A DNA stretch of 38,765 nt from Gammaproteobacteria bacterium (lineage in GTDB: Bacteria > Pseudomonadota > Gammaproteobacteria > Arenicellales > Poriferihabitantaceae): assembly GCA_009841725.1 (NCBI GenBank), contig VYGS01000111.1, positions 1-38,765 of the forward strand, written 5' to 3'. A program made the position numbers and the translations under genes. Positions 176 to 15,147 of this stretch are shown in pieces. Within the stretch, counting starts at the first letter, position 1, and every line of letters begins with the position of its first letter. The notes under the pieces are model-generated. The model was not told the DNA's origin. It searched no databases and was given only the letters and a program-made list of their open reading frames with translations.

Positions 176-817
176 TTGGCATCGGTCGGGATGAGTCACA
201 TTGCGGCGAGCTCCCAGCAATCCGGTCAACACCGGATTGATGCCCCTCTGTTGCGCTCCAACACCTACACTGTCCTGGCCTCGTTGCTTCACGGCCCCCC
301 GGGTTCGGCGCTGATCGACCATCTCTCAAGCCTGTCCGTTGCCGACGAGGATGCCTTGGGCGCGATGGGCCGGGCCTGGATGAATCTTCGAGACGCCGCG
401 CGCCGCGCGGACATCGCGGAACTCGGCCATGAATACCAGAACCTGTTCATCGGTCTTGGCCGGGGCGAAGTGGTGCCGTATGGAAGCTGGCACCTGACCG
501 GCTTCCTGATGGAAAAGCCGCTGAGCGACCTTCGCGACGATCTCGCGGCGCTCGGTATCGTTCGCGAGGAGAGCGGGAAGGATCCCGAGGACCACATCGC
601 CGCGCTGTGCGAAAGCATGGCCTTGCTGATTCAGGCCGATGATGTGGACGAGGACATGGAGCGTCGTTTCTACGCCTGCCACGTCAATCCCTGGGCGGGC
701 AAGTTTTTCAAGGGATTGCAGTCGGCGCCGTCGGCGAAGTTTTACCGGGACGTGAGCTTTCTTGGACAGACGTTCATGGAGCTCGAGGGCCACTATCTGA
801 ATTTACGAACGCATTGA
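176..817 (+). CDS. TorD/DmsD-family molecular chaperone for formate dehydrogenase
   Basis: This 213-residue protein resembles the TorD/DmsD family of cytoplasmic chaperones that bind Tat signal peptides and help insert the molybdenum cofactor into oxidoreductases before export. The helical body carries the family-like segments ELGHEYQNLFIGLGRGEVVP (about residues 82-101) and, near the C terminus, CHVNPWAGKFFKGL. The chosen start is TTG at 176 because a strong AGGAGGG lies at 161-167, eight bases upstream; an ATG at 191 is an alternative that would shorten the protein by five residues. It is the first gene of the cluster, directly before the Tat-signal protein and the catalytic subunit, so the client is inferred to be FdhA (1146-4016). 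Family assignment is fairly firm; the client is inferred from position. Confidence 0.85.
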   Translation: MASVGMSHIAASSQQSGQHRIDAPLLRSNTYTVLASLLHGPPGSALIDHLSSLSVADEDALGAMGRAWMNLRDAARRADIAELGHEYQNLFIGLGRGEVVPYGSWHLTGFLMEKPLSDLRDDLAALGIVREESGKDPEDHIAALCESMALLIQADDVDEDMERRFYACHVNPWAGKFFKGLQSAPSAKFYRDVSFLGQTFMELEGHYLNLRTH

Positions 818-1145: not shown

Positions 1146-4016
1146 ATGAAATTGATACGCAAACAGACGGCGGAGCAGACCGGCAAGTTCGCCGGCCTCG
1201 GCGAGAGCATTGACCGCCGTACATTTCTGGCGCGATCGGGGATCGCGGTCGGAGCGGCAACCGCGGCGACGGTGCTGACTCCCGGCCGGGTCAGGAAGGC
1301 GCATGCCGCAAGCAGCGAAGCGCGAACCGGTCCCGTAACGATAAAGAAGAGCGTGTGCACGCACTGCTCGGTCGGATGCGGGGTCGTGGCGGAAGTCCAG
1401 AACGGTGTCTGGACGGGGCAGGAGCCGGATTTCGATTCGCCCTTCAATCTCGGCGCCCACTGCGCCAAGGGCGCATCGGTCAGGGAGCACGGGCATGGAG
1501 AGCGCCGTCTCAAGTATCCGATGAAACTGGTTGGCGGGAAGTGGACCCGCATGTCTTGGGACGACGCCATCAACGAGGTTGGCGACGGCATGCTCAAGAT
1601 CCGCGAGGAGTCCGGACCGGATTCCGTGTACTGGATGGGCTCGGCCAAGTTCAACAACGAACAGGCCTACATGTTCCGCAAGTTCGCCGCGATGTGGGGC
1701 ACCAACAACGTTGACCACCAGGCGCGCATCTGCCACTCGACCACGGTCGCCGGCGTTGCCAACACCTGGGGATACGGCGCGATGACCAACTCCTACAACG
1801 ATATGCACAACAGCAAGGCGATGCTCTTCATCGGATCCAATCCGGCCGAAGCGCACCCGGTTTCCCTGCAGCATATCTTCAGGGCGAAGGAGAACGGTTC
1901 CAAGATGATCGTGATCGATCCGCGATACACCCGCACCGCGGCCCACGCGGATCACTTCGTGCGAATCCGGCCGGGGACCGACGTGGGAATCATGTGGGGC
2001 ATGCTCTGGCATGTCTTCGAGAACGGATGGGAGGACAAGGAGTACATTCGCCAGCGCGTCTACGGCCTTGACGAGATCCGGGCCGAGGTGGCGAAGTGGA
2101 ATCCGCAGGAAACCGAACGGGTCACCGGCGCACCGGAGGACGTGGTCAGGACCGCCGCACAAATGATGGCGGAAAACTCGCCCGCCACCTTCGTGTGGTG
2201 CATGGGCGGTACCCAGCATACCATCGGCAACAACAACACCCGTGCCTACTGCGCGTTCCAGCTGGCGCTGGGCAATATCGGCAAGTCCGGCGGCGGCGCG
2301 AACATCTTCCGCGGCCATGACAATGTCCAGGGTGCGACCGACTTCTGTGTGCTGTCGCATTCGCTGCCCGGATACTACGGCCTCAGCGACGGTGCGTGGA
2401 AGCACTGGTCCAGGGTCTGGGATCTGGAGCACGAATGGGTCAAGGGACGCTTCCATCCCGAACAGGTGGAAGGCGACAAGGGCAAACCGATCCATCCGAT
2501 GAACTACCGGGGCATTCCGGTGTCACGATGGGTGGACGGCGTGCTCGAGGAGAGCATCGGCCAGAAAGACAACATCCGCTGCATGGTCTGGGCCGGTCAC
2601 GCTGTCAACAGCCAGAGCCGCGGTCCGGAAATGAAGAAGGCCATGAACAAGCTGGACATGATGGTGATCATCGATCCCTATCCGACTCATGCCGCGGTGC
2701 TGCATGACCGGAGCGACGGTGTCTACCTGCTTCCGGCCTGCACCCAGTTCGAGACGTACGGCTCGGTCACCGCTTCGAACCGCTCGCTGCAGTGGCGCGA
2801 AAAGGTCATCGAACCGTTGTTCGAATCGCTTCCGGACCACACGATCTTCTACAAGTTCGCCAAGAAGTTCGGATTTGCCGACCAGTACTGCAAGAATATC
2901 GCGGTCGAGAACGACGAGCCGAACATCGAGGACGTGACCCGGGAATTCAACCGCGGCATGTGGACCATCGGCTACACCGGGCAGAGTCCGGAACGGCTCA
3001 AGCTTCATGCGCAGAACAAGCACACCTTCAACACCACGACGCTGAAGGCCGAGGGCGGCCCCTGCGACGGGGACTACTACGGCATGCCCTGGCCCTGCTG
3101 GGGAAATCCCGAGATGAACCATCCAGGCACGCCGGTGCTGTACGACACCAGCAAGCCGGTTGCCGAAGGTGGTCTGTGTTTCCGGGCCCGGTTCGGGGTC
3201 GAGCATGAAGGCAACAACATCCTGGCCGAGGGCTCCTGGCCGAAGGGGTCCGAAATCCAGGGTGGTCATCCCGAATTTACCGCCGATCTGCTCAAGAAGC
3301 TGGGCTGGTGGAATGACCTGACCGCGGACGAGCAGGCCATGGCGGAAGGCAAGAACTGGAAGACCGACCTCTCCGGAGGCATCCAGCGTGTTGCCATCAA
3401 GCACGGCTGCGCGCCGTTTGGAAACGCCAAGGCCCGGGCCATCGTGTGGACCTTTCCCGATCGGGTGCCGATCCATCGCGAGCCGCTCTATGCGCCGGAC
3501 CGCGATCTGGTGAACAAGTATCCGACCTACGAGGACCGGAAGCGGTTCTATCGGCTTCCGACCCGGTACATGTCGATCCAGAAGGATGACTATTCGCAGC
3601 AGTTCCCGCTCGTCTTCACCAGCGGCAGGCTGGTCGAGTACGAGGGCGGCGGCGAGGAGTCCCGCTCGAATCCCTGGCTGGCCGAACTCCAGCAGGAGAT
3701 GTTCGCGGAGGTCAATCCGACCGATGCCAACAACAGCGGCATCAAGGACGGGGACATGATCTGGATCGAAACGCCGGAAGGCGCGCGCATCAAGGTGGCG
3801 ACCATGATCACCAGCCGCGTGGCGCCGGGAGTCGTGTTCACGCCGTTCCATTTCGGGGGCTGGTACGACGGCGAGGACCTGCTGGACAAGTATCCGCCCG
3901 GGACCGAGCCCTATGTGCGGGGCGAGGCGTGCAACACCGCCTTTACCTACGGGTATGACTCAGTAACCCAGATGCAGGAAACGAAAGTGACCCTGTGTCG
4001 CATCAAGGCCGCTTGA
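1146..4016 (+). CDS. fdhA: formate dehydrogenase catalytic (alpha) subunit, molybdopterin type, Tat-exported
   Basis: A 956-residue molybdopterin oxidoreductase that oxidises formate to CO2 and passes electrons to the FeS subunit encoded next. A Tat signal (DRRTFLARSG, residues 23-32) predicts a periplasm-facing enzyme. A [4Fe-4S] site follows with Cys71, Cys74, Cys78 and Cys106. The active-site motif is ARICHST, with Cys196 (codon TGC at 1731) where the E. coli enzymes FdnG and FdhF carry selenocysteine, followed by His197. The C-terminal part (from about residue 815) has the dinucleotide-binding barrel, including VFTSGRLVEYEGGGEESRSN. AGGAG at 1133-1137 supports the ATG at 1146. Length fits the Cys-type periplasmic subunits of respiratory FDH. 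Identity as a formate dehydrogenase, rather than another family member, is supported by TorD, the Tat protein, FdhB, FdhC and FdhD in the window. Confidence 0.95.
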   Translation: MKLIRKQTAEQTGKFAGLGESIDRRTFLARSGIAVGAATAATVLTPGRVRKAHAASSEARTGPVTIKKSVCTHCSVGCGVVAEVQNGVWTGQEPDFDSPFNLGAHCAKGASVREHGHGERRLKYPMKLVGGKWTRMSWDDAINEVGDGMLKIREESGPDSVYWMGSAKFNNEQAYMFRKFAAMWGTNNVDHQARICHSTTVAGVANTWGYGAMTNSYNDMHNSKAMLFIGSNPAEAHPVSLQHIFRAKENGSKMIVIDPRYTRTAAHADHFVRIRPGTDVGIMWGMLWHVFENGWEDKEYIRQRVYGLDEIRAEVAKWNPQETERVTGAPEDVVRTAAQMMAENSPATFVWCMGGTQHTIGNNNTRAYCAFQLALGNIGKSGGGANIFRGHDNVQGATDFCVLSHSLPGYYGLSDGAWKHWSRVWDLEHEWVKGRFHPEQVEGDKGKPIHPMNYRGIPVSRWVDGVLEESIGQKDNIRCMVWAGHAVNSQSRGPEMKKAMNKLDMMVIIDPYPTHAAVLHDRSDGVYLLPACTQFETYGSVTASNRSLQWREKVIEPLFESLPDHTIFYKFAKKFGFADQYCKNIAVENDEPNIEDVTREFNRGMWTIGYTGQSPERLKLHAQNKHTFNTTTLKAEGGPCDGDYYGMPWPCWGNPEMNHPGTPVLYDTSKPVAEGGLCFRARFGVEHEGNNILAEGSWPKGSEIQGGHPEFTADLLKKLGWWNDLTADEQAMAEGKNWKTDLSGGIQRVAIKHGCAPFGNAKARAIVWTFPDRVPIHREPLYAPDRDLVNKYPTYEDRKRFYRLPTRYMSIQKDDYSQQFPLVFTSGRLVEYEGGGEESRSNPWLAELQQEMFAEVNPTDANNSGIKDGDMIWIETPEGARIKVATMITSRVAPGVVFTPFHFGGWYDGEDLLDKYPPGTEPYVRGEACNTAFTYGYDSVTQMQETKVTLCRIKAA

Positions 4017-4033
4017 GGCAGGAGTACAGAACA

Positions 4034-4624
4034 ATGGCAACAATGAAATTTCTTTGCGATGCCGAGCGCTGCATCGAATGCAATGGTTGTGTAACCGCCT
4101 GCAAGAACGAGCACGAGGTGCCCTGGGGAGTCAACCGTCGAAGGGTGATTACGCTCGGAGACGGGGACGTCGGCGAGAAGTCGATTTCCGTGGCCTGCAT
4201 GCATTGCACGGACGCACCCTGCTCGGCGGTCTGCCCGGTCGACTGTTTCTACACGACCGACGACGGCATCGTGCTGCACGACAAGGACCTGTGCATCGGC
4301 TGCGGCTACTGCTTTTACGCCTGCCCGTTCGGTGCGCCGCAGTATCCCGAGCAGCAGGCTTTCGGTGTGCGGGGCAAGATGGACAAGTGCACCTTCTGCG
4401 CCGGGGGGCCGGCCGACGACAACTCTCCCCGAGAGTTCGAAATGTACGGCCAGAACCGGATTGCGGACGGGAAGCTGCCGCTTTGCGCCGAAATGTGTTC
4501 GACCAAGGCGTTGCTGGCCGGCGACGGGGACATGGTCGCGGACATCTACCGCGAACGGATCCTCAAGCGCGGCGGACGGCCCCAGACCTGGGGCTGGGAA
4601 ACCGCCTACGGCCAGACCGTGTAG
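4034..4624 (+). CDS. fdhB: formate dehydrogenase iron-sulfur (beta) subunit
   Basis: A 196-residue four-cluster ferredoxin that carries electrons from FdhA towards the membrane cytochrome b subunit. Four Cys groups are visible: CIECNGCVTACKNE near the N terminus, CMHCTDAPCSAVCPVDC, CIGCGYCFYACPFG, and the pair CTFC...CAEMC. Unlike E. coli FdnH it shows no C-terminal membrane helix, as in the shorter proteobacterial versions. The start is ATG 4034, preceded by GGCAGGAG overlapping the end of fdhA; a longer reading from 3995 would run into the fdhA coding end and adds no conserved sequence. A terminator-like hairpin follows its stop before the next gene of the operon. Confidence 0.94.
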   Translation: MATMKFLCDAERCIECNGCVTACKNEHEVPWGVNRRRVITLGDGDVGEKSISVACMHCTDAPCSAVCPVDCFYTTDDGIVLHDKDLCIGCGYCFYACPFGAPQYPEQQAFGVRGKMDKCTFCAGGPADDNSPREFEMYGQNRIADGKLPLCAEMCSTKALLAGDGDMVADIYRERILKRGGRPQTWGWETAYGQTV

Positions 4625-4950: not shown

Positions 4951-6021
4951 ATGTCAACACAGCAAACTACCGTTGAAAAGAGCCGGCGGCGATTTCGGGC
5001 CATGGGATGGTCGATTCTGTTCATCCTTTCATTCGCCATGATATTGCCGACGGCGACATACCTGATTCCGACGGACTCCGTCCAGGCCCAGGTCGCCAAT
5101 GACCAGAACCAGCGGGCCAATTTCTGGCGGGCGGTCCGGGAAGGCAACTCCGGATACAGTGCGGTTGTCGGACCCGAGACCGGCGTGTTCATCAACAACG
5201 GCGGCCAGAACTGGCGCCAGATGCGAAACGGCGTCATCGCCACCTACGGCGGCTGGGCGCTGATCGTCGCGCTGGCCGCATGCATCCTGTTCTTCCTGGT
5301 GCGCGGCAAGATCAGGATCGAGGCCGAGCGGTCCGGTCTGACCGTTCCGCGATGGCAGGTGTGGGAGCGTTTCATGCACTGGTACACCGCGGCCGGTTTC
5401 GTGGTGCTGGCGATCACCGGCCTCAGTTTGCTGTTCGGCCGGCTGGTGCTCATCCCGGTGCTCGGCCCCGAGGGCTTTTCCGCTTGGGCGGCGCTGTCCA
5501 TCAACGTGCACAACGTGGTCGGGCCGTTTTTCAGCATCGGCGTTTTCGCCATGCTGCTGTTCTGGATCAAGAACAACATTCCCAATGCGACCGACATGAA
5601 ATGGTTTGCGGCCGGCGGCGGGATCATCGGCAGTGCGCATCCCAGTGCCGGCAAGGCCAACGGCGGAGAGAAGGTCTGGTTCTGGATCGTGATCCTGATC
5701 GGCCTGGTTGCGGTCTGCGGTTCCGGTTTCGCACTGATCGGCTGGCTGGCCCAGATGGGAATCGGCGATGCGACCCGGGCCTCCATGCAGTACATGCATC
5801 AGATTCATGCGATCGCCGCGGTGATCTGGATCGTGGTATTCGTCGGTCATGCCTACATCGGGACGCTCGGCACGGAAGGCGCATTGGAAGGCATGACGAC
5901 CGGGCGCGTCAGCGTCGAATGGGCCAAGCAGCATCACGACATGTGGTATGAAGAGGTCAAGGGCGAGGCCGGACAACAGCCGGTCTCCGATGTCGGAGTC
6001 TCCGAAGCGAAAACGACCTGA
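4951..6021 (+). CDS. fdhC: formate dehydrogenase cytochrome b556 (gamma) subunit
   Basis: A 356-residue membrane protein that anchors FdhAB and passes electrons to the quinone pool through b hemes. The first membrane helix (about residues 11-31) is followed by a ~60-residue periplasmic stretch including FWRAVREGNSGYSAV, typical of long proteobacterial gamma subunits. A second helix around residues 92-112 precedes the cytochrome b561-like core: VWERFMHWYTAAGFVVLAIT, SINVHNVVGPFF and MHQIHAIAAVIWIVVFVGHA, which supply the heme-ligand histidines. GGGGGA at 4939-4944 supports ATG 4951. It is the last FDH structural gene and is followed at once by a strong terminator. Confidence 0.93.
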   Translation: MSTQQTTVEKSRRRFRAMGWSILFILSFAMILPTATYLIPTDSVQAQVANDQNQRANFWRAVREGNSGYSAVVGPETGVFINNGGQNWRQMRNGVIATYGGWALIVALAACILFFLVRGKIRIEAERSGLTVPRWQVWERFMHWYTAAGFVVLAITGLSLLFGRLVLIPVLGPEGFSAWAALSINVHNVVGPFFSIGVFAMLLFWIKNNIPNATDMKWFAAGGGIIGSAHPSAGKANGGEKVWFWIVILIGLVAVCGSGFALIGWLAQMGIGDATRASMQYMHQIHAIAAVIWIVVFVGHAYIGTLGTEGALEGMTTGRVSVEWAKQHHDMWYEEVKGEAGQQPVSDVGVSEAKTT

Positions 6022-6069: not shown

Positions 6070-6154
6070 GTAACGGGCCAGCGTTGCACGGCGGGGCGCA
6101 GTCTTGAAGAGGTTCCCGAAACCGATTTCGGACAGCATGAGGAAAAGCGGGGCC

Positions 6155-6646
6155 ATGACGACCTGCGCTCCCGTCCGGTTCGATCACGGCGACTGGGAGA
6201 CGGCCGTTTTTTTCGAGGTGGGCGGAAAGGCGTGCAGAAAGGACCGGGAAACCCTAAGGCGCGCCCGGTCCCCGTTCGCGGTCGCGCTTGAAGCCGATTT
6301 GATGAGCCATGCCTCGGCCAGCATCATCATGCTGCGGTTCGAGGTCATGACCGCTCCGGACAATCCCCTGGTCGGGGAAGTGCTGATCGCCCCGGGGCTC
6401 GGCAGCGCCCAGTTCGATGTGGTGGACAATCTGACAAGGCAAAAGAGCATGCGATGGTTCTTCGGTGACGGGTCTTACCGTATAATCTTTTCGCAACAGA
6501 CGACGCTGATGGACCGGGAGCGCCGGGGCTATTCGGAACTGCTCGGCGAGGCGGTCAGCCACGATGCCCTGATCAGGCTGACGGGACGGTACGACGCACA
6601 CAACGCGCTTGGCGAGATTGTTGGACATTATGCTTACCGGAAATAG
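6155..6646 (+). CDS. unknown protein, first gene of an FDH-linked four-gene module
   Basis: I do not recognise a family. The frame is open from 6104; ATG 6155 is preferred because a purine-rich AGGAAAAGCGGGG lies just before it and the extra N-terminal residues look non-conserved; this choice is uncertain. It encodes 163 residues, soluble, with no signal or membrane segment. Visible blocks include VRFDHGDWETAVFF near the start, a central hydrophobic stretch, and MRWFFGDGSYRIIF. The next gene starts inside its 3' end (ATG 6630 versus stop 6646), so the two are translationally linked. It follows the fdhC terminator, so it either has its own promoter or is reached by read-through. A formate dehydrogenase accessory role is inferred from position only. 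Confidence 0.65.
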   Translation: MTTCAPVRFDHGDWETAVFFEVGGKACRKDRETLRRARSPFAVALEADLMSHASASIIMLRFEVMTAPDNPLVGEVLIAPGLGSAQFDVVDNLTRQKSMRWFFGDGSYRIIFSQQTTLMDRERRGYSELLGEAVSHDALIRLTGRYDAHNALGEIVGHYAYRK

Positions 6647-7400
6647 TCGAGCACGCGGCATCCGGCTCGCGCAGGCCGCCGGGATTGCCTGCCTTTGCCT
6701 GTATGCGGCAAAGGCTGCTACGTGGGACACGTTTTCCGAAGCCGTCTACAAGAACGACGTGGCCGACATGGAGGCGTTTCTCCATGCCCCCGATCCGATC
6801 CCGGATATCGATGTTCGGGGGACGAACGGGAAAACCGCCCTGATGATTGCCGCGCGCTCCGGCGAGGCGGATCTGGTCATGGAACTGCTTGAACGGGGCG
6901 CCGATCCGAATTCCGAGAACATCAACGGAGGTACGCCGTTGATGTTCGCCGCGATGAGCGGCAGCATACCGGTTGTGCGGGCGCTTCTGGATCGCGGCGC
7001 GGATGTCGGCGCAACGGGCAGCAACGGCTGGAATGCTCTGATGGTGGCCTCGGCCAAGGGGCACGAAGATGCCGTCAAGGTGCTGCTGGATCATGGCTCG
7101 GACGTCAACTCGGCCGATGTATACCGGTGGACCCCGCTTCACCGGGCCGCCTACGAGAACCGGGTGTCGGTCGTCGGCATCCTGATCCGTCAGGAAGGCG
7201 TCGAGATCGATTTTCAGGACGATCAGGGCGCGACGGCGCTACATCATGCGGCGGCGGGAGGATACCAGGAGATCGTCGACATGCTGCTGGTCGCGGGGTC
7301 GAATCCGGCCAGACGGGACCTGTCCGGCCGGACCGCGGCCGCATATGCCAAGGACAGCGGCCACGAACGGCTGGCGGATCGGCTTGAAGGGCGGACCTGA
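6630..7400 (+). CDS. exported ankyrin-repeat protein
   Basis: A 256-residue protein with an N-terminal signal-like segment (Arg-rich start, then a hydrophobic stretch to about residue 27, AAKA) and then about six ankyrin repeats to the end. Repeat hallmarks are clear: GKTALMIAARSGEADLVMEL, GGTPLMFAAMSGSIPVVRAL, GWNALMVASAKGHEDAVKVL, RWTPLHRAAYENRVSVVGIL, GATALHHAAAGGYQEIVDML and a final GRTAAAYAKDSGHERLADRL. Such domains bind proteins; the signal suggests action in the periplasm. ATG 6630 is chosen over a TTG at 6609 because it starts a proper signal peptide. It overlaps the preceding gene by 17 bases and is followed after 3 bases by the ligase-like gene, so it is expressed with them. Confidence 0.85.
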   Translation: MLTGNSRARGIRLAQAAGIACLCLYAAKAATWDTFSEAVYKNDVADMEAFLHAPDPIPDIDVRGTNGKTALMIAARSGEADLVMELLERGADPNSENINGGTPLMFAAMSGSIPVVRALLDRGADVGATGSNGWNALMVASAKGHEDAVKVLLDHGSDVNSADVYRWTPLHRAAYENRVSVVGILIRQEGVEIDFQDDQGATALHHAAAGGYQEIVDMLLVAGSNPARRDLSGRTAAAYAKDSGHERLADRLEGRT

Positions 7401-7403
7401 CGC

Positions 7404-8162
7404 ATGCGGACAGGCCGTCCGGAGCTTCCGGCAGCGTACGAGCTCGTCGAGATCGAGGAGTCGGATGATCTCCGCAGGCTTGCCGCGGGCATGGCCTGCG
7501 ACGGGCGCCGGGAGGGGACGCTGATCTGGCTCAAGCGCCAGCTCTCGGGCCGGGGATGGGACGACAGCCCTTGGTACAGCCAGGAAGGGGATCTGCATTG
7601 CGCCGTTCTCCTCGAGCCCGAATTCGAACGTCGGCGCTACGGCGAAATCATTCTGGTGGCGGCCGTCAGTTTGGGCAATGCGCTGGCTCTTCACCTCTCG
7701 CCGATGATCGCGCTGGGCTATGACTGGCCGGACAGGCTGGTCATCGCGAATCATGTCGTGGGCCGGATCTGGGCGGAATGCGGCCACCATCCGAAGCCCT
7801 GGCTGAGCGTGTCGTGTTCGGTCAATCTTCTCGATTCGCCCGAGGACTATTCGATTTCGGCCATCAGTGTCCGCGAGGCGGAGGGCACCACGGAACTGGA
7901 TGCCGGCACGCTGCTCCAGTCCTTTGCCCGGGAGTTCATCACCGGGATCAACGCGTGGAGCGAGGAGGGCATGCCGTCGCTGGTGGACAAGTGGAGAATT
8001 CGAGGGAACCGGCCTGGAACGCCCTGCACGGTCGGGGCGCTTTCGGGAACGGTGCGCGGGATCGACGAAGCGGGCAATCTGCTCGTGGAGGCGGAGGCGG
8101 GGCACCAGGAAAAACTGGTTCTGGAATCCCGTGTACGGGAATTTACGGAGAGGACACAATGA
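7404..8162 (+). CDS. biotin/lipoate A/B protein ligase-like protein
   Basis: A 252-residue cytoplasmic protein resembling the BPL/LplA/LipB-like family that is often found in proteobacterial formate dehydrogenase clusters. Family-like elements include EGTLIWLKRQLSGRGWD (about residues 37-53), the strand-rich block LHCAVLLEPE, LGYDWPDRLVIANHVVGRIW and LSVSCSVNLLDSP; the C-terminal part (about 200-245) looks like a small beta-barrel domain with GTVRGIDEAGNLLVEAEAG. No biotinyl or lipoyl acceptor domain is seen near it, so the classical reaction is not supported by context; a cofactor or modification role for FDH is inference. It starts 3 bases after the ankyrin gene, and its stop overlaps the next start as ATGA at 8159-8162. 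Confidence 0.78.
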   Translation: MRTGRPELPAAYELVEIEESDDLRRLAAGMACDGRREGTLIWLKRQLSGRGWDDSPWYSQEGDLHCAVLLEPEFERRRYGEIILVAAVSLGNALALHLSPMIALGYDWPDRLVIANHVVGRIWAECGHHPKPWLSVSCSVNLLDSPEDYSISAISVREAEGTTELDAGTLLQSFAREFITGINAWSEEGMPSLVDKWRIRGNRPGTPCTVGALSGTVRGIDEAGNLLVEAEAGHQEKLVLESRVREFTERTQ

Positions 8163-8890
8163 AGGAAACGGTACGACTCGGGAGACGGTCGTTTTTCAAG
8201 GTCTGCATGTCCACGCTGTCCCTGATCGGGGCCAGCCCCTACCTGCTCGCCCAGAACGATTCGGCATCCCGTTCCTACAATCGCGTCAGGCTGGTGACGG
8301 AGGAGGGTCAGGCCGTGACCTCGGAAAGACTGAAGAAAGCGGGATGCCTGATCTTCAACTATCCCTACGTGACCACCCCGTGCTTCCTGATCGACCTCGG
8401 CAGGGCGGTCAATCCGCCGGCGGCGTCCAGCTGGCCCGGAGGATCGGGAAAGGACCGTTCCGTGGTCTGCTATTCCGCCATTTGCGCACACAAGCAGACC
8501 TACCCGGCAAGAAGCGTCAGCTTCATCAACTTCCGCCCCGAGGAGATTTCGTACCGCGACCACGACAACAACGTGAAGAAACAGTCCGCACTGATCTACT
8601 GCTGCTCGGAAAGCAGCGTGTACGATCCGGCCCGGGGAGCCCGGGTCATGGGGGGGCCGGCACCGGTTTCCCTGACCACCATCCTGCTCGACTACGACGC
8701 CGAGTCCGATCACTACTACGCGACCGGGACCATGGGCGTCGAGCAGTACGAGGCCTTTTTCGACCGGTTCACATTTCGCGTCGCGCTGGAGAACGGCATG
8801 AAGGGCGTGGAGGACATCCGCACGCTGGCGCGCGATGCGACGAGGGTCTATACGCCCGAAGAGTACAGCATGCAACAGGTCAGCTGCTGA
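8159..8890 (+). CDS. Tat-exported Rieske-like [2Fe-2S] protein lacking the second ligand histidine
   Basis: A 243-residue protein with a twin-arginine signal (GRRSFFKV, residues 8-15, then a hydrophobic run) and a Rieske-type fold: YSAICAHKQTYP holds the first ligand pair Cys109-x-His111, and SSVYDPARGARVMGGPAP is the characteristic sequence after the second box. The second box itself reads YCCSESS (residues 147-153) where CPCHGS is expected: Cys148 and Cys149 are present, but no histidine lies at the CxxH position in either register. Cys104 is an extra cysteine near box 1. The protein may bind an altered cluster or none. It is the last gene of the four-gene module, has GGAGAGG at 8148-8154, and is followed by a hairpin terminator. 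A periplasmic electron-transfer or assembly role for FDH is inferred. Confidence 0.82.
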   Translation: MKETVRLGRRSFFKVCMSTLSLIGASPYLLAQNDSASRSYNRVRLVTEEGQAVTSERLKKAGCLIFNYPYVTTPCFLIDLGRAVNPPAASSWPGGSGKDRSVVCYSAICAHKQTYPARSVSFINFRPEEISYRDHDNNVKKQSALIYCCSESSVYDPARGARVMGGPAPVSLTTILLDYDAESDHYYATGTMGVEQYEAFFDRFTFRVALENGMKGVEDIRTLARDATRVYTPEEYSMQQVSC

Positions 8891-8952: not shown

Positions 8953-10101
8953 TCAGCGCTTCGAATAAAATGCCTGCAGGTACGGTTCAAATACGAACAA
9001 TCGGCTCCGGCTTCGACCGGTAATTTCCCGGAGAATGCCGTGCTCGCACATCAAGGCGATCAACCGGTTGGCCGTCCGAAAGGTGGTTCCGCAGGCTGTT
9101 GCCGCCTCGTCGACGCTGACGATCGGTTTCTGGAACAGGTGTTGAAGCAATGTCATCGCATTCGCCGCTCGCCTGCCGAAGTCAGTTTGAATTCTTTGCT
9201 CAATGTCCGTCTTGAGATCCCGTATTCCTGCAAGGGTCTCGACGGCTTCATTGGCAGTCTGTTCCACTCCATCCAGAAAGTACTCCAGCCATCGCCCCAT
9301 GTCGTTGTGGGTTCGTGTTCTCATCAAATTGCTGTAGTAGAGTTCCCGGTCCCTTTCGAACCAGGTCGAGATATAGAGAAGGGGGCGCTTCAGGATTTCC
9401 TCACTGACAAGATAAAGAGTGATCAGCAGACGGCCGATTCGTCCATTGCCGTCCAAAAAGGGGTGTATGGTCTCGAACTGGTAGTGGGCGATGGCGATCC
9501 GGACAAGCGCCGGAAGATGGAGGTCTTGATTATGCAGGAATTTCTCCAGATCGCTCATCAGCTCCGGAACATGTTCATGCGATGGCGGAATGTATGTCGC
9601 ATTCTGCAGATTATGCCCTCCTATCCGGTTTTGGCTGACCCGATATTCTCCAGGCAGTTTGTGCTTGCCTCGGACATTGTCGAGCAGTGTTGTGTGAGCA
9701 CGCCTCAATAGGCGCGATGACAACGGCAGAGTCTCCAGATCTTCGAGCGCCTGATTCATGGCCAGAATGTAATTATTGACCTCGTGCCAGTCGTCGCGCC
9801 GCTCCGGGTTGATTTCTTTTTCGGGAAGTAGCGCCTCGTCCATGTTCGTCCTGGTTCCCTCGATTCGACTGGAGTCCACCGACTCCTTGACGACATGCAA
9901 CCGGATGAACAGATCAATACTCGGAACCATGCGCGCATAGGAGTTAAATTCTCCAAGCCTGAGCGCGGCTTTTTCAGCCAGCTGGTTGATCCGCGGGACA
10001 TTCCAGGTCCAGATGTCGTTTATGCGGGTTGGCAGAAAGAATCGATATCCCGCTCCCTTGATGAGTTTGCCGGATTGATACGTTTCCAGTTTGATGGTCA
10101 T
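8953..10101 (-). CDS. Fic-family protein (AMPylase-like), class II, with C-terminal winged-helix region
   Basis: A 382-residue Fic protein. The catalytic motif HPFLDGNGRIGR is complete at residues 213-224, with His213 as the catalytic base; the family transfers AMP or related groups to hydroxyl side chains. The N-terminal SSRIEGT (residues 78-83 region) matches the inhibitory helix motif S/T-x-x-x-E-G/N of class II Fic enzymes, whose Glu blocks ATP binding until released. The C-terminal ~80 residues look like a helix-turn-helix (AATACGTTFRTANRLIALM), suggesting DNA binding or autoregulation. It is on the strand opposite to the flanking FDH-linked genes and sits between the Rieske-like gene and DUF3306, so it looks like an insertion into an accessory cluster. 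The target is unknown. Confidence 0.92.
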   Translation of the reverse strand: MTIKLETYQSGKLIKGAGYRFFLPTRINDIWTWNVPRINQLAEKAALRLGEFNSYARMVPSIDLFIRLHVVKESVDSSRIEGTRTNMDEALLPEKEINPERRDDWHEVNNYILAMNQALEDLETLPLSSRLLRRAHTTLLDNVRGKHKLPGEYRVSQNRIGGHNLQNATYIPPSHEHVPELMSDLEKFLHNQDLHLPALVRIAIAHYQFETIHPFLDGNGRIGRLLITLYLVSEEILKRPLLYISTWFERDRELYYSNLMRTRTHNDMGRWLEYFLDGVEQTANEAVETLAGIRDLKTDIEQRIQTDFGRRAANAMTLLQHLFQKPIVSVDEAATACGTTFRTANRLIALMCEHGILREITGRSRSRLFVFEPYLQAFYSKR

Positions 10102-10364: not shown

Positions 10365-10961
10365 TTACGGGGGCGTCTCGCCGTCGGGGTCGGCCTCGCC
10401 CTCCGGCAGTTCTTCCGGCCCGACCGGTTCCGCGTCGGGGGAGTCCTCCTCCTCGCTGGTCGGAGACTCGGCCTCATCCTGCTCCACCGCCTCTTGTTCT
10501 GCGGCGGCTTTCCGTCGTTCCTCTTCCTCCTCTTCCTTTCGCCTTTTCTCCTTCATTTCCTCGCGGTGCTTCATGTCCGAGGTGACCAGGTCGCCGAGCG
10601 GTTCGAAATAGGTGAAATCGTCATCGTAGTCATCCAGGCCGTCCCGGATATTGAATCCGGCGCCGGAGAACAGTTTCCGAAGCGCCAGGCGTCGAAGCTT
10701 CTCGCTGACCCCTTCCGACATGAACAGCGAGTAGTCGCTGTTTTCGTCAAGGCTCTCGATTGGGGGCATGTCCTCGTCGGTGAGAACCCGGGACTCCCCG
10801 GTCGATTCCGGGAGCGTGTCCGAAGCCGATTCGCTCTGCACAGGCTCGGGAACCGTCGCCTCCTGCCCGGTATCCTGGCTGGGCGACTGTTCCGATTTGC
10901 GACGCGACCAGCGCGACAAAAAGGACTTCTCTTCAGTGTCTTGTCGTTGATCCTTTGACAT
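10365..10961 (-). CDS. DUF3306-family protein, formate dehydrogenase-associated
   Basis: A 198-residue protein with the FLSRWSRRK start (residues 14-22) typical of DUF3306 proteins, a central conserved block (LRRLALRKLFSGAGFNIRDG, then LDDYDDDFTYFEPLGD), and a very acidic low-complexity tail from about residue 130 that includes a run of five Glu. DUF3306 genes are commonly found beside DUF3305 and Cys-type formate dehydrogenases; their function is unknown. Its start lies 29 bases inside the preceding DUF3305 gene, so the two are translated together. They are on the opposite strand and about 4 kb from fdhABC, separated by the ligase/Rieske module and fic. No signal peptide or membrane segment is seen. 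Confidence 0.85.
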   Translation of the reverse strand: MSKDQRQDTEEKSFLSRWSRRKSEQSPSQDTGQEATVPEPVQSESASDTLPESTGESRVLTDEDMPPIESLDENSDYSLFMSEGVSEKLRRLALRKLFSGAGFNIRDGLDDYDDDFTYFEPLGDLVTSDMKHREEMKEKRRKEEEEEERRKAAAEQEAVEQDEAESPTSEEEDSPDAEPVGPEELPEGEADPDGETPP

Positions 10962-11463
10962 AGTCGGAATCGCTGAGCCAGTCCTTGCGTTTTCGCTTCT
11001 TCTTCACTTCCGGGACATAATGGGTGATCACGTAGCTTTCGAGAATGCCGCACATCTCGTCCGGCATGGGAATCTCGAGAACCGTGCGCTCCGCTTCCAT
11101 GTCGCCGGTGGCCTCATCCTGATTGGCGGTCACAAACACGGGTTCGATTTCCATCTCGCCCTGGTTTCCGTCGCACACGACGAACAGATGCGGCTTGTCC
11201 GACAGCAGGTTGTACCAGTAGCCCTCGTTGCCGTCCTTGTACAGATGGACCGACATGCCGGTCCACAGGAATCTCGCATGAATCCCGTCATCGTGGATGA
11301 GCACCTTTCCGGCATCGGTGCCGGCCTGATTGTCGCAGATCAGCGCATAGGCCGACCAGTGGGGCAGGCCCCATGGGCTGTCGGGGTCCAGTGTCCTTTG
11401 GAGCACGACCGAAACCGGAACGACGACTTCCCGGTCCGATGCCTGAAAATGAATGTCTGACAT
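10933..11463 (-). CDS. DUF3305-family protein, formate dehydrogenase-associated
   Basis: A protein of 176 residues when read from ATG 11463 (start MSDIHFQ). The frame is open to 11529, but the shorter start puts the conserved opening VVVPVSVVLQRTLDPDSPWG near the N terminus as in DUF3305 proteins; neither start has a clear ribosome site. Further conserved-looking parts are WSAYALICDN, LYKDGNEGYWYNLLSDKPHL and a Lys/Arg-rich C terminus (KKKRKRKDW). The product is probably cytoplasmic and of unknown function; the family is repeatedly linked to formate dehydrogenase clusters. It is the first gene of the DUF3305-DUF3306 pair and overlaps its partner by 29 bases. Confidence 0.83.
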   Translation of the reverse strand: MSDIHFQASDREVVVPVSVVLQRTLDPDSPWGLPHWSAYALICDNQAGTDAGKVLIHDDGIHARFLWTGMSVHLYKDGNEGYWYNLLSDKPHLFVVCDGNQGEMEIEPVFVTANQDEATGDMEAERTVLEIPMPDEMCGILESYVITHYVPEVKKKRKRKDWLSDSDYVKGSTTRH

Positions 11464-11596
11464 GATTCGTTTTCGGGGCAGTACCCGAGCCCGGAAAATG
11501 GCGGGCAACTGGATCTTCCCCGGATGCAATGATGGAAATTATAACCCTCTGAGAGAGAATTTATCGGGGAGGGTGTTCAATAAATTTTCAATTGAA

Positions 11597-14223: not shown

Positions 14224-15147
14224 ATGACACAAGTCGCCCAATCTCCGTCAACTGCTGCAAGCCAAAACGGTCACGACAGTGCGGATTCCTATGCGGGTCT
14301 GCTGCCGGAGTTGACCGGCGAAGGGCTGGAATCGATCCACCAGGTTGAAGCGAAAAACCAGTACGGCATCGACCAGCAGGTCAATATCGTCGATGAATTG
14401 CCGTTGACGATCAAGGTCGATGGAGAGGAACTGGTTACGCTGATGACCCTGGGCAGCCAGCCGGAACGGCTGGTTCTCGGCTACCTCCGCAACCAGTCGC
14501 TTTTCGAGCATCCGGGCCAGATCAAGTCGGTCAGGGTCGACTGGGACCGGGAGCTTGCCGAAGTGGTTACCCGGGACGGGAATGGTCTGGACGGTATCGA
14601 CACTTCGCGCAAGACCGTGACCAGCGGATGCGGCCAGGGCACGATTCTCAGTTGTACGCTGGACAAGCTCTACGATCACCGTCTGCCCGAAGTGACGCTG
14701 CGCCAATCCGATATCTACGAGGTGCTCCATCGGGTCAAGGATTTCAACAAGGCCTACCGCGCGGCCGGTTCCGTGCACGGTTGCGGGTTGTGCCGGGACG
14801 GGAAGGTCCTCATGTTCATCGAGGATGTCGGACGCCACAATGCCATGGATACGATTTCCGGCGAGATGTGGCTCAAGAACATGCCGGGACACGACAAGAT
14901 CTTCTATACCACCGGCCGGCTGACCTCGGAAATCGTGATGAAGTCGGCCCTCATGGGGATTCCGGTCCTGGTGTCGCGAAACGGCACAACGAACATGGGC
15001 TATGAACTCGCGGTCGAGTTGGGAGTCACCCTGATCGCCCGGGCAAAAAGCCGGCAGTTCACCGCGCTGAACGCGCACAACATGATATTCGACGCGGCGC
15101 CTCCCGTGCCGCCCCATATGGACAGTCGGCGCCAGAAAGCCCGCTAG
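14224..15147 (+). CDS. fdhD: formate dehydrogenase accessory sulfurtransferase FdhD, variant type
   Basis: A 307-residue FdhD, which passes sulfur to the bis-MGD cofactor of formate dehydrogenase and is needed for its activity. Family blocks are clear: VTLMTLGSQPERLVLGYL, VTSGCGQGT, FIEDVGRHNAMDTISG, FYTTGRLTSEIVMKSALMG and PVLVSRNGTTNMGYELA. The E. coli CGxC pair (Cys121/Cys124) is reduced here to Cys136 in CGQG, the second Cys being Gly, while an extra HGCGLC (Cys187, Cys190) precedes the EDVGRHN block. The N-terminal ~55 residues are variable. It is separated from fdhABC by about 8 kb, with no ribosome site evident before ATG 14224. Its stop shares a CTAG with the stop of the convergent dioxygenase gene. 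Confidence 0.93.
   Translation: MTQVAQSPSTAASQNGHDSADSYAGLLPELTGEGLESIHQVEAKNQYGIDQQVNIVDELPLTIKVDGEELVTLMTLGSQPERLVLGYLRNQSLFEHPGQIKSVRVDWDRELAEVVTRDGNGLDGIDTSRKTVTSGCGQGTILSCTLDKLYDHRLPEVTLRQSDIYEVLHRVKDFNKAYRAAGSVHGCGLCRDGKVLMFIEDVGRHNAMDTISGEMWLKNMPGHDKIFYTTGRLTSEIVMKSALMGIPVLVSRNGTTNMGYELAVELGVTLIARAKSRQFTALNAHNMIFDAAPPVPPHMDSRRQKAR

Follow-up and report, generated by a model that had tools for sequence, protein, structure and literature searches.

The Rieske-like gene and its surroundings

The window analysed here is the whole 38,765-nt stretch of contig VYGS01000111.1 (assembly GCA_009841725.1) from a Gammaproteobacteria bacterium of the Poriferihabitantaceae, read on the + strand. It carries, in this order, genes for a TorD-like chaperone, FdhA, FdhB, FdhC, a protein designated u6104, an ankyrin protein, a biotin/lipoate-ligase-like protein and a Rieske-like protein, followed at some distance by fdhD. 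The features are given below, with the occurrence of cluster genes counted over 40 compared neighbourhoods of relatives in which the second Rieske box reads CCSE; neighbourhoods located at contig ends are incomplete.

176..817, + strand: TorD/DmsD-type chaperone (Pfam PF02613, 2.7e-28)
1146..4016, + strand: FdhA-like molybdopterin oxidoreductase with Tat motif (TIGR01591, 3.6e-141, below the curated cut-off; PF00384, 1.4e-44)
3995..4624, + strand: FdhB-like 4Fe-4S protein (PF12838, 1.2e-12)
4951..6021, + strand: FdhC-like cytochrome b (TIGR01583, 2.7e-43, above the cut-off)
6104..6646, + strand: u6104, conserved cluster protein (homologues in 25 of 40 CCSE neighbourhoods)
6609..7400, + strand: ankyrin-repeat protein with signal-peptide-like N-terminus (PF12796, 1.4e-42; 36 of 40)
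7404..8162, + strand: biotin/lipoate ligase A/B-like protein (PF16917, 1.3e-18; 22 of 40)
8159..8890, + strand: gene for the Rieske-fold protein with acid-type box 2 (ORF of 243 aa, AlphaFold model)
8180..8260 (approximate extent), + strand: Tat-like signal region (RR at residues 9-10, Cys16)
8483..8491, + strand: box 1, C109-A-H111, predicted first Cys and His ligands (invariant in 73/73 family and 7/7 outgroup rows)
8600..8611, + strand: box 2, C148-C149-S150-E151, with E151 at the place of the canonical second ligand His (SoxF/AioB alignment)
8885..8887, + strand: C-terminal Cys243 (codon TGC), proposed disulfide partner of C149 (Cys in 73/73 aligned members)
10365..10961, - strand: DUF3306 protein (PF11748, 2.1e-27)
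10933..11529, - strand: DUF3305 protein (PF11749, 2.9e-33)
14224..15147, + strand: FdhD (PF02634, 5.3e-66)

The Rieske-like ORF runs from an ATG at 8159, which overlaps the stop of the upstream gene, to a TGA at 8888-8890. Its Tat-like motif is G8-R9-R10-S-F-F-K-V, and the relevant codons are TGC for C109 (8483-8485), CAC for H111 (8489-8491), and TGC, TGC, TCG and GAA for C148, C149, S150 and E151 (8600-8602, 8603-8605, 8606-8608 and 8609-8611). The ORF and codons confirm the box 2 sequence and residue numbering of the initial annotation, and the Tat signal that it reported is present as R9-R10-x-F. Within the signal region, residue 16 (8204-8206) is a Cys in 61 of the 64 acid-type rows described below.

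Several neighbouring genes deserve mention in their own right. The protein u6104 matched no Pfam family; its 19 aligned homologues share invariant C21, W31, D47, D122, D154 and R158. The biotin/lipoate ligase A/B-like gene sits inside the formate dehydrogenase (FDH) cluster. A gene for a Fic-domain protein (8953-10101, - strand) is convergent with the Rieske-like gene, and Fic-like matches also occur at loci L089 and L090. The DUF3306 and DUF3305 genes lie between the Rieske-like gene and fdhD.

Fold and relation to known Rieske families

The AlphaFold model of the protein (pLDDT 86.4, pTM 0.81) displays the Rieske domain superfamily fold with its two cluster-binding loops. The best structural match is AioB (1g8j_B; Z 16.9 over 126 residues, rmsd 2.0, VIA-align), and SoxF (1jm1) is matched with Z 13.9 (VIA-align), so that the protein as modelled has a Rieske fold. 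Sequence profiles point in the same direction, with matches to SoxF (3.6e-16) and AioB (1.9e-15); the best sequence relatives are the SoxL2 model (2.5e-18) and SoxF (7.1e-10). Membership of established families is nevertheless not indicated, since the score against SoxL2 (TIGR03171) is 66.2 bits versus a curated cut-off of 582.1, and that against the arsenite oxidase small subunit (TIGR02694) is 44.1 bits versus 95.65, the neighbouring enzyme moreover being an FDH. The Pfam Rieske model PF00355 gave no match to the protein at E 0.1, and at 0.01 it matches 3 of 27 family members. The 2.6 Mb assembly (G000) contains 15 canonical Rieske matches to PF00355, and the Rieske-like gene is not among them.

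Box 1 has the Rieske Cys-x-His pattern, and the Cys-x-x-His pattern is missing from box 2. An HMM alignment to SoxF (1jm1) places C-C-S-E-x-S opposite C-P-C-H-G-S (within HCPCHGS), by which pairing E151 occupies the place of the ligand His. The absence of the second ligand His, noted in the initial annotation, thus stands, whereas its uncertainty as to whether Glu or Ser takes this place, depending on register, does not: the register is unambiguous, and the residue is Glu151.

Conservation and origin of the acid-type box 2

Searches over related genomes yielded 77 distinct sequences in which box 2 could be read; the counts refer to the sampled genomes, and duplicates were removed only if identical. 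Glu occurs in 58 of them (CCSE 56, CCAE 2), Asp in 10 (CCAD 8, CCGD 2) and His in 9 (CCAH 6, CCSH 2, CCLH 1). The scan of genome contigs produced only four close relatives, and plasmid records gave only distant arsenite-oxidase-like matches. For tree construction 73 longer family rows were aligned with 7 AioB-like outgroup rows. In the family rows residue 151 is Glu 55 times, Asp 9 times and His 9 times, so that all 64 distinct acid-type proteins carry Glu or Asp there, while C109, H111, C148, C149 and the terminal Cys (C243) are invariant in 73/73. In the acid clade the only invariant His, Glu, Asp or Cys residues beyond the proposed ligands are D156, C149 and C243, and D156 is invariant in the His type too. 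The codons for C109, H111, C148, C149 and residue 151 differ among synonyms across the family, which favours selection on the protein over recent common descent.

Judged from the alignment, replacement of the ligand His by an acidic residue is a trait of the whole subfamily, as the initial annotation had suspected for the loss of the His. Since the replacement is kept throughout a large bacterial clade, a new mode of cluster binding is a more probable explanation than a damaged gene. A sequencing artefact, a decayed copy or a pseudogene can be discarded, since the gene is complete and 64 acid-type proteins share the motif. Another conserved His supplying the missing ligand, the case that would have overturned the original idea, was looked for, and H111 proved to be the sole invariant His. 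Cys75 (in TPC) was also considered as a ligand and rejected; many members have Val, Ser or Ala in its place, and most of the canonical outgroup shares the Cys.

In a tree rooted with the AioB-like sequences, the acid-type rows form one clade (support 100/96). The nine His-type proteins are placed basal to it, some of them on long branches, and the outgroup also has His, which points to one His-to-carboxylate change. The simplest history read from these alignments would be a single such change, with Glu and Asp later interchanging in one sub-group. Circularity, with box 2 itself driving the grouping, was rejected as an explanation: after exclusion of the box 2 columns the acid clade retains a support of 93 and the switch is still single.

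A proposed replacement disulfide

The cysteines that form the disulfide of bc1-type Rieske proteins (third Cys of box 1, middle Cys of box 2) are missing in 73/73 family rows. All seven outgroup rows have Cys at positions 114 and 150 but lack it at 149 and 243; in the family, His type included, every row shows the reverse arrangement, with Cys at 149 and 243 and none at 114 or 150. No residue is found at the Cys243 position in the seven AioB-like rows of the full alignment, and a few family members extend 1 or 2 residues beyond the terminal Cys. As the canonical pair is missing and C149 and C243 occur in all rows, a replacement disulfide between these two would be the simplest reading. At the level of the alignment, three points go beyond the initial annotation: where the His is replaced, a carboxylate always takes its place, the terminal Cys does not vary, and the canonical disulfide appears to be swapped.

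Gene neighbourhoods of family members

The gene in the window lies beside TorD-FdhABC, and FDH genes are found near the CCSE gene in 33 of the 40 neighbourhoods, in agreement with the link between the subfamily and FDH that had been suggested at the outset. Six further CCSE neighbourhoods, mostly short or incomplete stretches, have the ankyrin gene without FDH. Ten acid-type neighbourhoods from the family of genome G166 (CCAD, CCAE and CCGD types; L118, L122, L178-L185) mostly lack FDH or FCSD genes close by; a clear FDH set is present in one (L184), and L178 shows only a weak ferredoxin-like match. Judged by eye, L118 and L122 are near LysR/CysB-like and aminotransferase-like genes.

The His-type genes have other neighbours, an FCSD-like flavoprotein in 9/9 (L120, L121, L123, L173, L174, L175, L176, L177 and L191; assigned by Pfam for three and by similarity for the rest) and FDH in 0/9. 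This flavoprotein resembles the flavin subunit of flavocytochrome c sulfide dehydrogenase (FCSD). The His-type Rieske protein may replace the cytochrome c subunit of flavocytochrome c. In the broadest form of our proposal, a natural Rieske-fold [2Fe-2S] protein with Cys2-His-Glu/Asp ligands and a relocated disulfide would have arisen once from a Cys2His2 ancestor, with formate dehydrogenase taking over as partner from a sulfide-dehydrogenase-like flavoprotein; we give this scenario slightly less than even odds.

Nature of the metal site and possible function

The defining ligand set of Rieske proteins consists of two Cys and two His, and it is to the two His that the high, pH-dependent potential of these proteins is ascribed. 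For the protein described here we favour, with a probability of about 0.55, a Tat-exported Rieske-fold protein whose metal site would be formed by Cys109, His111, Cys148 and an acidic residue, Glu151 here and Asp in part of the family, in place of the canonical Cys2His2 set. This site would most likely hold a [2Fe-2S] cluster of altered potential, and the usual loop-to-loop disulfide would have given way to a Cys149-Cys243 bridge that ties the tail over the site. The protein would then most likely act as a periplasmic electron carrier or as an attached subunit of the neighbouring membrane-bound FDH, a role modelled on that of AioB, which serves the molybdoenzyme AioA. Because FdhA has a Tat motif and shares a superfamily with AioA, a direct complex with the Rieske-like protein is plausible, if unproven. 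FDH is the most likely partner on the basis of gene neighbourhood, which in itself does not prove interaction.

Carboxylate-ligated [2Fe-2S] clusters are rare. In the regulator RsrR, however, a [2Fe-2S] cluster is coordinated by two Cys, one His and one Glu (PMC11138216, PMC12499515); its EPR gav is about 1.93 (PMC12499515), compared with about 1.91 for Rieske clusters. For ARF, an archaeal Rieske protein, a cluster is kept when His64 is replaced by Cys, whereas His44 is not replaceable (PMC2946596); by its motif spacing, His64 would be the box 2 His, and thus the counterpart of the one lost here. A search of the open-access literature found no documented case of a Rieske site with His and Glu on one iron and nothing relevant on His-less Rieske proteins, an unusual Rieske fold or FDH-Rieske-ankyrin clusters; most subscription journals were outside its scope, and an earlier description is possible.

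The acid at position 151 could also be a non-ligand, and other occupants of the site can be envisaged. A mitoNEET-like 3Cys-1His [2Fe-2S] cluster, coordinated by C109, H111 and C148 together with C149 or C243, would use residues that are all invariant, and the H64C variant of ARF holds a low-potential cluster of this kind in a Rieske fold (PMC2946596). Yet C149 and C243 are just as constant in the nine His-type relatives, where they accompany a full Cys2His2 set and must have another task; C149 thus cannot be seen as making up for the lost His. This disfavours the initial proposal of C149 as the third Cys, given its occurrence in the CCAH, CCSH and CCLH relatives. Since C149 also follows ligand C148 immediately, and the constant Glu/Asp at 151 would be left unexplained, we consider such a cluster unlikely. 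To a similarly small degree we would credit a mononuclear Fe or Zn site of the Cys2-His-Glu/Asp type, structural or redox-active, for which four conserved ligand-type residues are available and of which the ARF triple mutant, with mononuclear Fe in a Rieske scaffold, provides an example (PMC2946596); the retention of the GPA segment after box 2 speaks against it, as does the fact that the close relatives with solved structures, AioB and SoxF, carry [2Fe-2S] (partly general knowledge; PMC2946596).

Loss of the cluster, with a structural role left to the protein, was the other option raised initially; a protein of this kind might also help in FDH assembly. The second His is gone, and one could imagine an exported helper encoded next to FDH, a TorD-type chaperone and an ankyrin protein. 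However, cluster loss would free the ligand residues, and their constancy counts against it: C109, H111 and C148 have stayed fixed across the 64 acid-type proteins, which come from many families, and residue 151 is confined to E/D despite synonymous codon turnover. With three ligands that never vary and a fourth that is always Glu or Asp, loss seems quite improbable.

If the favoured carboxylate-ligated [2Fe-2S] site is correct, evolution has already carried out the experiment: in a large natural family exactly one ligand was exchanged for a carboxylate while Cys2His2 sisters survive, and a comparison of the two could show how the ligands determine cluster potential and proton coupling. The family further suggests that the FDH gene cluster of many gammaproteobacterial families includes a periplasmic redox component not described so far.

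Comparison with known systems

The arsenite oxidase subunit AioB shares the fold (Z 16.9 over 126 residues) and the CxH of box 1, and its partner AioA is, like FdhA, a molybdopterin enzyme of the same superfamily; it differs in having CxxH in box 2 and in serving AioA instead of an FDH, and the AioB-like outgroup rows possess the canonical disulfide cysteines but lack a C-terminal extension with a final Cys. The archaeal SoxF and SoxL2 proteins are closest by sequence and share the GPAP segment after box 2, but box 2 of SoxF is CPCH, and the score against SoxL2 is far under the curated cut-off (66 versus 582 bits). More similar is the His-type sister group (CCAH/CCSH/CCLH), which has C149, the terminal Cys and a Tat signal and lacks the canonical disulfide, but has kept the second ligand His and is found with a flavoprotein neighbour in 9/9 and with FDH in 0/9 cases.

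Among unrelated proteins, mitoNEET and IscR resemble the proposed site in their single His and mixed ligation, but their 3Cys-1His clusters employ a third Cys ligand in different folds, and such a set does not explain the E/D conservation; the candidate Cys residues for it are present in the acid type, but in the His-type relatives as well. The Streptomyces regulator RsrR has the ligand set of two Cys, His and Glu that is proposed here, albeit in an unrelated Rrf2 fold, with ligands from two monomers and with Glu and His on different irons.
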